From the NCBI GenBank assembly GCA_020161335.1, contig JAIUOJ010000008.1, forward strand, positions 1 to 55,080: a stretch of 55,080 nt of DNA. Reading direction: 5' to 3'. Shown one piece after another: positions 34,591-37,395 of the stretch. Below the pieces are notes generated by a model. It saw nothing but the letters and a program-made list of their open reading frames with translations, was not told where the DNA came from and made no database searches. Source of the DNA: Pseudomonadota bacterium. Lineage in GTDB: Bacteria > Pseudomonadota > Gammaproteobacteria > Xanthomonadales > Xanthomonadaceae. Every line of letters begins with the position of its first letter. Position 1 is the first letter of the stretch. The translations under genes were made by a program, and so were the position numbers.

Positions 34591-35565
34591 ATGAACGTGC
34601 CCGTCGACACCCCCCACCCGCCCCGCCGACGCACCTCCGCGCTGGCCTGGCTGCTGGTGCCGGTCCTGCTGCTGGGCGCGGCGGCGTGGGGCTGGCACCA
34701 GTGGCAGGCCCGGCGCGCGACCCAGGCGCAGGTCGCCAGCGCCGAGCAGCTGCGCGCCGACGCACTGGAAGCACGCCTCGACGCGCTGCGCCGCGACCAG
34801 CGCGCGCAGACCGCGCGCCTGCAGCAGGCCGAAGCCACCAACCGCCTGCTGCGCGATGAAGTGCTCGGCCTCGGCCAGCGCGCGGCGCTGGTGGAGGACA
34901 CCGTGCACAAGCTGTCCGATCCGGCGCGCAGCGGCGTGCAGGCGCTGCGCCTGGACGAAGTCGAACTGCTGCTCGCGCAGGGCCAGCAACGCCTGCTGCT
35001 GGCCGGCGACCTCGACGGCGCGCGCCGCGCCTACGCGCTGGCGGCGCAGGTGCTGGACGGCGTCGCCGATCCGGCCTGGCTCAACCTGCGCCAGGCGCTG
35101 ACCCAGGAACGCGCCGCGCTCGACGCGCTCGGCGGCGATCCGCGTGCCGTCGCCGCCGGCAGGCTCGAAGCCTTCGTCGCCGCCCTGCCGGCGCTGCCGG
35201 CGCAGGCACCCGCCGCCGCCGACGGCCAGGCGCCGTGGTGGGAACGCGCCTTCGACCGGATCATCGAAGTGCGGCCCAGCGCCGGCGCAGTGGCGGTGGA
35301 ACCGGCCGATCGCGCCGCCGGGCTGGCCGCGCTGCGCCTGGAGTTCACCCTCGCCCAGGCCGCGATCGAACGCCGCGACCGCGACGGCTACCGTGCCGCG
35401 CTGGCACGCGCCGACGGCTGGATCCAGCGCCTGTGGCCGGCCTCGCCCGCGCGCAGCGCGCAGCAGGCGACCCTGCGCACGCTGGGCGACCTGCCGCTGG
35501 CCGTCGAGCTGCCCACCCTGGGCAGCACGCTGGAGCAACTGCGCAAGCAGCGCAGCGCCGGCTGA
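34591..35565 (+). CDS. hemX: HemX, uroporphyrinogen-III C-methyltransferase-like membrane protein
   Basis: HemX is a single-pass inner-membrane protein found between hemD and hemY. It is annotated as a C-methyltransferase by name, but has no methyltransferase domain, and its role in heme synthesis is unclear. The 324-residue protein has a short cytoplasmic start, one membrane helix at about residues 17-36 (LAWLLVPVLLLGAAAWGW), then a long coiled coil (about 45-110, AEQLRADALEARLDALRRDQ) and the conserved HemX region LDEVELLLAQGQQRLLLAGD. The promoter-like TAGCAT at about 34557 suggests its own start of transcription as well. Its stop is only seven bases from the left boundary of the putative integron cassette. 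Confidence 0.9.
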   Translation: MNVPVDTPHPPRRRTSALAWLLVPVLLLGAAAWGWHQWQARRATQAQVASAEQLRADALEARLDALRRDQRAQTARLQQAEATNRLLRDEVLGLGQRAALVEDTVHKLSDPARSGVQALRLDEVELLLAQGQQRLLLAGDLDGARRAYALAAQVLDGVADPAWLNLRQALTQERAALDALGGDPRAVAAGRLEAFVAALPALPAQAPAAADGQAPWWERAFDRIIEVRPSAGAVAVEPADRAAGLAALRLEFTLAQAAIERRDRDGYRAALARADGWIQRLWPASPARSAQQATLRTLGDLPLAVELPTLGSTLEQLRKQRSAG

Positions 35566-35572
35566 GCGCGTG

Positions 35573-36072
35573 TTCAGCCTGCCGTGACACCCCCAAGACC
35601 ACTCTTCGTTCTTTCGCTGATCAGTCTGGTCGGCTGTGCGAGCGTCGCCACGCCCACCTTGAAAGGCAACTCATGGTCCGGGGAAGATGGTTCTCGACTC
35701 AGCGCGCAGATTCGCTCTACCTCGGAACAACTGCCAGTGGGGTGGCTTCACAAGGCCGGACAGGGCGATGCATTCGGCTCTTTCGCCTATCGCAAGCGAT
35801 CTGGCACATACGACTACTCAGAGCGCGGATACTTCGTGGTAGATCCGAAGTGGCAAAAGGATCGGCAGTATGTCGGCGTGCTCAATCCTGGAGGCGTTTT
35901 CTGCGTCGCCAACCCTCAGCAGCAAGCCAGCGAAGAAACGGGTTCTGGTGGAGATGTGAGCACAATTACGTATTGGACGGTCTATGACTACTGCGTTCAG
36001 TTGCACGGCCAATAGGCCCAACCATTCATTCAACCAGTCGAAGCCGCTTCGCGGCGCGGCTTAAATCAGGCG
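35573..36072 (+). mobile_element. Single integron gene cassette inserted between hemX and hemY
   Basis: A 500-bp segment bounded by two identical GTTCAGCCT sites (35572-35580 and 36072-36080); crossover between G and TT at both gives this length exactly. It has one ORF in the same orientation, starting 11 bases from the left boundary. The ORF stops one base before a site that looks like attC (36016-36078). GC content drops to about 50%. No integrase gene or second attC is in the window, so it would be a stray insertion at a secondary site. Confidence 0.75.
35584..36015 (+). CDS. Cassette-borne putative lipoprotein, unknown function
   Basis: A 143-residue protein with a short signal peptide and lipobox (FVLSLISLVGC, Cys18). 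The mature part is rich in Ser, Tyr and Gly (KRSGTYDYSERGYFVVDP, YVGVLNPGGVFCVANPQQ) and ends with two Cys near WTVYDYCVQLHGQ. I do not recognise a family. GC content and codon use (TCT, CGA, CAT, AAT, GGA) differ strongly from every neighbour, which shows recent transfer. Start GTG at 35584. It sits in the hemX-hemY gap, followed directly by the attC-like site, so it fits an integron cassette ORF. It is in the same direction as the hem genes and could be expressed from their promoter. Confidence 0.8.
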   Translation: MTPPRPLFVLSLISLVGCASVATPTLKGNSWSGEDGSRLSAQIRSTSEQLPVGWLHKAGQGDAFGSFAYRKRSGTYDYSERGYFVVDPKWQKDRQYVGVLNPGGVFCVANPQQQASEETGSGGDVSTITYWTVYDYCVQLHGQ

Positions 36073-36078
36073 TTCAGC
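36016..36078 (+). repeat. attC (59-base-element-like) recombination site
   Basis: Starts with GCCCAAC (36016-36022, fits RYYYAAC) and ends with GTTCAGC (36072-36078, a near match to GTTRRRY). Between them are ATTCATTCAA and the inverted pair GAAGCCGC/GCGGCTT around a TTC core (about 36040-36062), the layout of Xanthomonas-type attC sites. Confidence 0.75.
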
Positions 36079-36141
36079 CTGTCCACGCCGCGACCACATC
36101 GCCCGCGCGACCCTGTCGCCGCGACGAAGAGGAGCCCGACC

Positions 36142-37395
36142 ATGAACCTGTTCCGCAACCTGCTGCTGTGGATCGCGCTGGCCCTGGCCGGCGCCCTGCT
36201 GGCGCAACTGCTGCTCGCGCACGACCCGGGCTACGTGCTGGTGCGCTGGCGCGGCTACGACTACACCACCTCCGTGTTCAAGGGCGCGGCGGTGCTGTTC
36301 GCCATCGCCTTCGTGCTGTGGTTGCTGTGGACCCTGCTGGCGCTGCCGTTCCGCGCCTGGGGCCGGCATCGCGACCAACGCGCGCGCGCGCGCATCAACG
36401 ACGGTTTCGATGCCCTGCACCAGGGCCACTACGCGCGCGCCGAGAAACTGCTGGCGCAGGCCGCCGATGACGAGCGCGTCGAAGCCGCCGCGCGCATCGG
36501 CGCCAGCCGCGCGGCGCGCGCACGCGGCGACCAGGCCGCGGCCCGCGCCCAGCTCGACGGTTTCGGCGAACGCCATCCGGCAACGCGCGCGATCGCTGCG
36601 GCGCAGCTGGCGCTGGACGAGGGTCGCGCGTCCGATGCGTTGGCCGTGCTCGACGCCCCCGCCGCGCAACCGCTGCCGCCACGCGGACTGGCGTTGCGCG
36701 CCGACGCGCTGGCCGCCAGTGGCGAGGCCGCGCAGGCCTACGGGCTGCTCGGCGCGCTGCGCCAGCAGCAGGCGTGGCCCGAGGCCGCGCTGGCCGAACG
36801 CGAACGGCAGTGGGCGCAAGCCGCGCTGCTCGATGCCGCTGACGGCAACCTGCTGGCCGAACGCTGGGACGGCATCCCCAGGGCGCTGCGCAGCGACCCG
36901 GCCATTGCCCGCGCCTACGCCAGCCGCGCGGTGGCCTTCGGCTGGGACGAGGCCGCGCTGAAAACCCTGGAGCAGGCGCTGGACGCGCGCTGGGACGACG
37001 CGCTCGCGCTGCACTACGCGCAGCTGCCGGTCGGCCGCGTCGAAGAACGCCGCGCGGTGGTGGCGCGCTGGCAGCAGGCGCATCCGGCCAGCCCGGCGCT
37101 GCCGTTGGCGCTGGCGCGCCTGGCGGCGGCGAATGGCCAGTGGCCGCAGGCCGAGGCGCAGCTGCATCGCGCGTTGGCCCAGGGCGGCGGCGGCGACGCC
37201 TGGGAAGCGCTGGGCGAAGGCTACGCGCAGGCCGGCGACGAGGCGCGCGCGCGCCAGTGCTACGCCAATGCGCTGCGCGCGCTGCGCGGCGAGGCGGTGA
37301 CGCCGCTGGGCGTGCGCGACCTGCAGCAGCAGATCGCGGACGAGGCGGTGGTCGAGGACCGCAACGAATTCGGCTTCCCGCGCCTGCGCCACTGA
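36142..37395 (+). CDS. hemY: HemY, heme-biosynthesis-associated TPR membrane protein
   Basis: The proteobacterial HemY protein (not the protoporphyrinogen oxidase of the same name) is an inner-membrane protein with two N-terminal helices and a cytoplasmic TPR region. It is always near hemD/hemX. The 417-residue sequence has helices at about 6-28 (LLLWIALALAGALLAQLLLA) and 46-68 (GAAVLFAIAFVLWLLWTLLA). The family motif DPGYVLVRWRGYDYTTSV lies between them. TPR-like helical repeats follow (INDGFDALHQGHYARAEKLL, TRAIAAAQLALDEGRASDAL). A ribosome-binding site, GAGGAG, is 10 bases before the ATG. It is the third gene of hemDXY, cut off from hemX by the cassette. Confidence 0.92.
   Translation: MNLFRNLLLWIALALAGALLAQLLLAHDPGYVLVRWRGYDYTTSVFKGAAVLFAIAFVLWLLWTLLALPFRAWGRHRDQRARARINDGFDALHQGHYARAEKLLAQAADDERVEAAARIGASRAARARGDQAAARAQLDGFGERHPATRAIAAAQLALDEGRASDALAVLDAPAAQPLPPRGLALRADALAASGEAAQAYGLLGALRQQQAWPEAALAERERQWAQAALLDAADGNLLAERWDGIPRALRSDPAIARAYASRAVAFGWDEAALKTLEQALDARWDDALALHYAQLPVGRVEERRAVVARWQQAHPASPALPLALARLAAANGQWPQAEAQLHRALAQGGGGDAWEALGEGYAQAGDEARARQCYANALRALRGEAVTPLGVRDLQQQIADEAVVEDRNEFGFPRLRH

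Follow-up and report, generated by a model that had tools for sequence, protein, structure and literature searches.

The window analysed here (the whole stretch of 55,080 nucleotides) carries hemD, hemX and hemY, each of which matched its own Pfam family in a Pfam search. Between hemX and hemY lies a 500-bp insert with one open reading frame (ORF), oriented in the same direction as the hem operon, and an integron attC site. The features of the locus, in window positions, are:

34591..35565, + strand: hemX, the left neighbour (Pfam HemX PF04375, E 1.5e-9)
35566..35572, + strand: left host flank GCGCGTG, up to the predicted crossover G (gap-free against five empty sites)
35573..36072, + strand: inserted gene cassette, 500 bp (absent at this locus in 13 of 13 relatives with the full spacer readable)
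35573..35581, + strand: opening nine bases of the insert, TTCAGCCTG, the same as in the host right border
35584..36015, + strand: ORF for a 143-aa putative lipoprotein (GTG start; LVGC lipobox, by eye)
36016..36078, + strand: attC site (covariance model R1, 52.5 bits, E 9.7e-12)
36073..36141, + strand: right host flank, resuming at the TT of G|TT (alignment with G035, G005, G028, G002 and G021)
36142..37395, + strand: hemY, the right neighbour (Pfam HemY_N PF07219, E 3.9e-19)

The hemX stop is at 35565, the predicted crossover G at 35572, host sequence resumes from 36073 and hemY starts at 36142; within the insert, the ORF runs from the GTG at 35584 to a TAG at 36013-36015, and R'' (GCCCAAC) follows from 36016. 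GC content was 0.54-0.58 in 250-bp windows wholly within the insert and 0.70-0.82 outside it, and GC3 was 0.62 for the cassette ORF versus 0.92 for hemX and 0.91 for hemY. A first-pass annotation of this DNA had described a 500-bp low-GC island between hemX and hemY, holding one ORF followed by a structured 63-bp site that starts GCCCAAC, and both descriptions stand, with the island at 35573-36072. It had also seen two copies of a repeat at the borders. These are indeed present at both borders, but the true repeat, GTTCAGCCTG, is 10 bp, one base longer than claimed; the window holds two copies of it on the + strand, at 35572 and 36072, and none on the − strand.

Used as a DNA query, the hem region matched numerous attC-like repeats in genomes from the genus. 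We built a covariance model (R1) from 30 attC sites in relatives' loci, the source genome contributing none. The pairs of its structure covary, with 32 cells altered on both sides, a count reached by none of 500 shuffles. Across the 55-kb window R1 gave a single match up to E 10, namely 36016-36078, and at 52.5 bits the site that had been proposed as an attC scores far beyond chance. Its last six bases, TTCAGC, are host-derived, and the rebuilt right end, GTTCAGC, has two mismatches with R'' GCCCAAC. Aligned to R1, the site has three non-standard pairs among 20, two of which involve the host-supplied end, and in addition a three-base insertion.

The DNA fold of the bottom strand of 36016-36078 was no better than that of shuffles (z +0.28), and two extra bases on each side (36014-36080) brought z to −0.81. 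The comparison covered a second single attC of the source genome, described below, and four other attCs, three from homologous cassettes and one from an array neighbour, with the degenerate attC of the G162 homologue left out; these four fold at z −4.89, −5.23, −5.61 and −5.51. The hairpin folding looked for in an integron cassette was not found in the cassette attC, and the insert is probably a cassette by descent with a dead attC. The poor fold is accounted for by the mismatched end supplied by the host, together with arms that are also off consensus, and it makes the cassette look locked in. Judged from these predicted folds, it is probably locked in and now an ordinary operon gene. In a passage of PMC2426708, insertion at a secondary site is described as leaving one recombination site, so that the chance of excision is lowered.

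We fetched 29 loci of relatives, of which 28 gave the hemY start (L021 was filtered out) and 13 the full hemX-hemY spacer, the remaining 15 being covered for the last 100 bases 5' of hemY. The cassette is absent from all 13 readable spacers; eleven of these are 52-95 bp long, and two are longer (564 and 758 bp) and hold other sequence. GTTCAG is present in seven of the 13 and absent from six, so the target motif is not shared by every relative, which counts against the insertion reading. Once joined, the flanks of the insert could be aligned over the junction, with no gap, to the spacers of the five best-matching relatives (G035, G005, G028, G002 and G021), all of which read TGAGCGNNNGTTCAG. 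The uninterrupted host sequence that the first-pass annotation had predicted for relatives lacking the ORF was therefore there in five of five. Joining restores G|TT, and the target GTTCA fits both GNT and GWTMW, consensus sequences that come from other integrases; in the part of PMC4618277 used here, GNT is given for secondary sites of IntI1 and GWTMW for those of the Tn21 integrase.

Both longer spacers have features of their own. That of 758 bp (L007, G026:C5) has an apparent acetyltransferase-like ORF, recognised by eye, beside GTTCAGCC, and contains an N with a repeated stretch; contig G026:C5 gave no attC model match at E<=1e-4. The 564-bp spacer (L008, G029:C43), in which the cassette is absent, opens with repeated ATCGGGA units and, by eye, holds further repeats.

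The source genome has the machinery to mobilize cassettes. On contig C105 an intI gene is open across the 338 codons read, its only stop (TAG) being at the end. It scored 472.5 bits against TIGR02249 (cut-off 265) over 314 of 315 profile positions, its score falling under the NF011946 cut-off of 435 bits, and beside it lie what appear by eye to be an attI and the first part of an array. Genome-wide, R1 matched 34 sites at E<=0.1; three array contigs (C9, C28 and C20) hold 31 of these, so that the search for intI and related attC sites that had been suggested for this genome found both. The hem-operon site is a single attC away from these, the sole R1 match on its 55-kb contig, with intI and the arrays on other contigs of a fragmented assembly. 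Some attC matches in the arrays of C9, C20 and C28 are longer (about 68 nt) or composite (103-109 nt).

The cassette ORF had no match in Pfam, NCBIfam or PADLOC, nor among PDB sequences, plasmids or viral contigs; genome contigs gave a single weak match, over 30 residues, in a planctomycete MAG, and an Rfam search of 35300-36400 found nothing. Going by attC type and gene content, the source genome would belong to the Xanthomonadaceae. Within the genus the ORF is encoded in two of 52 genomes, the source genome and G021, and in the family sample in seven of 395, the source genome counted. The four closest homologues, from four genera, all sit between attC sites: G021 (62%), G140 (64%), G162 (58%) and G112 (35%). 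The attC sites around the G162 homologue are degenerate, its own scoring 21.4 bits. G021 carries its homologue in an array, and its own hemX-hemY site is empty. The loci searched for the three weakest homologues (G343, G249 and G364; E 5e-5 to 3e-4) showed no attC, and a second cassette copy did not turn up in the source genome, whose assembly is 95% complete. The start register, 11 bases before the GTG, is the same in G021, G140 and G162. Pairwise against three of the four homologues, dN was 0.29-0.35 and dS 1.03-1.49, which suggests constraint on the ORF family and says nothing specific on the time since insertion.

We consider it highly probable from these comparisons that IntI inserted a circular integron cassette into the spacer between hemX and hemY, where GTTCA served as a secondary site of the attG type and the join falls at G|TT. 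IntI-mediated insertion at a secondary site, as the first-pass annotation had proposed, is well supported, because relatives have the empty site, the insert ends in a site recognised by the attC model, its homologues are array cassettes and the genome has an open intI and arrays. The 10-bp repeat lets the join fall anywhere within it, and G|TT is consistent with the data but unproven. The insertion would have taken place within the source lineage, by recombination of the circular cassette with GTTCA and presumably with IntI as the agent; the rebuilt attC would then have taken its right end from the host, the site would fold poorly and the cassette would be locked in. The ORF would now be read through from the hem operon. 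A simple promoter and terminator scan of 35400-36300 found none, and a private promoter for the ORF is therefore unsupported.

The left border is odd. All four homologous cassettes begin TTAGGCCTA, whereas the hem-operon cassette begins with the same nine bases as the host right border. At each of the three positions where it differs from the homologues' start (3, 4 and 9) it carries the host base, and the homologous start is itself like the host border at 6 of 9 bases. We compared 240 array starts (270 matches, less 29 without a readable GTT end and one antisense). A TTC start occurs in none of them, and none matches the host nonamer at more than 7 of 9 bases; 162 are strict GTTRRRY, while the left end of the hem-operon cassette, TTCAGC, does not fit TTRRRY. 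Five of the 240 cassettes start TTAGGCCTG, so perhaps only two left-border bases changed. Nine shared border bases are not predicted by a clean one-strand IntI exchange at G|TT. We also weighed a two-strand exchange with staggered overlap as their cause and set it aside, since the overlap would be on the wrong side, to the left of G|TT and not to the right. For the crossover of the top strand, passages of Escudero 2016 give the L box.

The first-pass annotation had held that single cassettes fixed in a core operon are rarely documented. This needs qualifying, as single attCs in themselves are not rare: at least 17 other single attC candidates were picked in 12 genomes of the genus, the source genome included, and lone attC sites (SALINs) have already been reported, as an excerpt of PMC12690207 has it. 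The matches listed are complete for 21 genomes and the source genome; 20 regions were fetched for single attCs, three near contig ends were set aside and weaker single matches were left out. Among the 18 single attCs listed, the hem-operon cassette is the only one with a border repeat, and empty sites were established for it alone. For the 17 others among the matches listed, the 1,500 bases upstream held no repeat of the right border (best 8 of 10). The source genome's second single attC (L070, G000:C26, 1263-1653) lies directly behind anmK. A 106-aa ORF goes with it, and the gene that follows has an IrrE-like Peptidase_M78 domain. The left end of L070 is G|TTAAGT and its attC still folds (z −3.16); the sequences after anmK in relatives were too divergent for comparison. 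By eye, the left flanks of several single attCs of the genus (L100, L087, L085, L083 and L084), set against L069, resemble the attI of the source genome, for example GGTCTACTAAGCG|TT versus GGTCTATTAGGCG|TT, and single attCs with such a flank are perhaps, going by sequence, one-cassette integron remnants. In G023:C1:2977647-2986615, three attC matches are repeated 6,983 bp on with identical scores, as though some 7 kb had been duplicated in tandem.

Two accounts of the border are variants within the explanation by IntI insertion. The first, to which we give somewhat better than an even chance, is that an ordinary IntI insertion was followed by two or three later changes, through short conversion between the near-identical borders or through chance mutation, which made the borders equal. 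The attC is off consensus in its three non-standard pairs of 20 and its three-base insertion, so the insertion may be old, and the right border reads CCTG in the source genome versus CATG in G035. Each left-border change falls on the host base, however, and repeats of 10 bp at a distance of 500 bp make poor conversion substrates, which counts against later change. The second account, which we regard as improbable although worth stating, is host-templated correction, in which mismatch repair would have converted the left border to host TTCAGCCTG ahead of the replication that resolves the junction; the first strand exchange would bring the host top strand and the end of the cassette side by side, and the similar stretches (6 of 9 bases) would pair. 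Correction is favoured by the host bases at all three differing positions, by the array sites (no TTC start among 240, best match 7 of 9) and by the 17 other single attCs listed, which have no right-border repeat (best 8 of 10). Against it, there is one case only, the five cassettes that start TTAGGCCTG may reduce the changed bases to two, and the passages of the literature cited here hold no description of such a process. It is very unlikely that the insert arose without an integrase, as a fragment of an array brought in through microhomology or in the manner of a transposon and duplicating 9-10 bp of the target, since, for all that the insert is flanked by a perfect 10-bp direct repeat with host sequence, it is one cassette unit that ends at the attC G and keeps the family start register, no transposase was recognised, and the ORF filling it is without a Pfam match.

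Under IntI insertion, then, this one case shows the before (empty sites), the likely source (array homologues) and the after (a poorly folding attC), and the border poses a mechanistic question, the fate of the cassette end at attG sites. A doubtful but general form of the second account would be that attG insertion can couple to host-templated correction of the cassette start, duplicating the target motif at both ends, while the copy at the right would impair the rebuilt attC and so make the insertion one-way. If true, correction-coupled attG insertion would be a route for integron cassettes into permanent membership of core operons.

A literature search on cassettes in hem genes returned no such paper by title. 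Reportedly, Loot et al. 2024 (Nat Microbiol) described IntI-mediated integration of cassettes at non-att genomic (attG) sites, and the hem-operon case would be alike in being an IntI-inserted cassette at such a site. The attG work concerned cassette libraries integrated in E. coli, as a passage of a citing paper has it (PMC12444791), whereas the hem-operon insertion is a natural one into a core operon and apparently locked; it would be the natural chromosomal counterpart of what those experiments predict, a cassette that left arrays and became a core-operon gene. Secondary-site insertions of aadB, in RSF1010/pIE723 and in an Acinetobacter plasmid, known here from titles in a reference list, likewise place a single cassette outside an integron, but going by those titles they are resistance cassettes on plasmids, whereas ours is a chromosomal cassette for a putative lipoprotein. 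SALINs, a named category reported with IntegronFinder in the excerpt of PMC12690207, share with it one attC without an adjacent intI; as described there they are defined by the attC alone, and the hem-operon case adds an empty site and a cassette family. The CALINs of Xanthomonas, a genus we take as related, are also cassettes away from intI, but in the sections of PMC12444791 that deal with them they need at least two attC sites, and the loci named there include no hem genes. Both the mechanism and the class are already known, and the hem-operon cassette is a further example of them, with an odd border.
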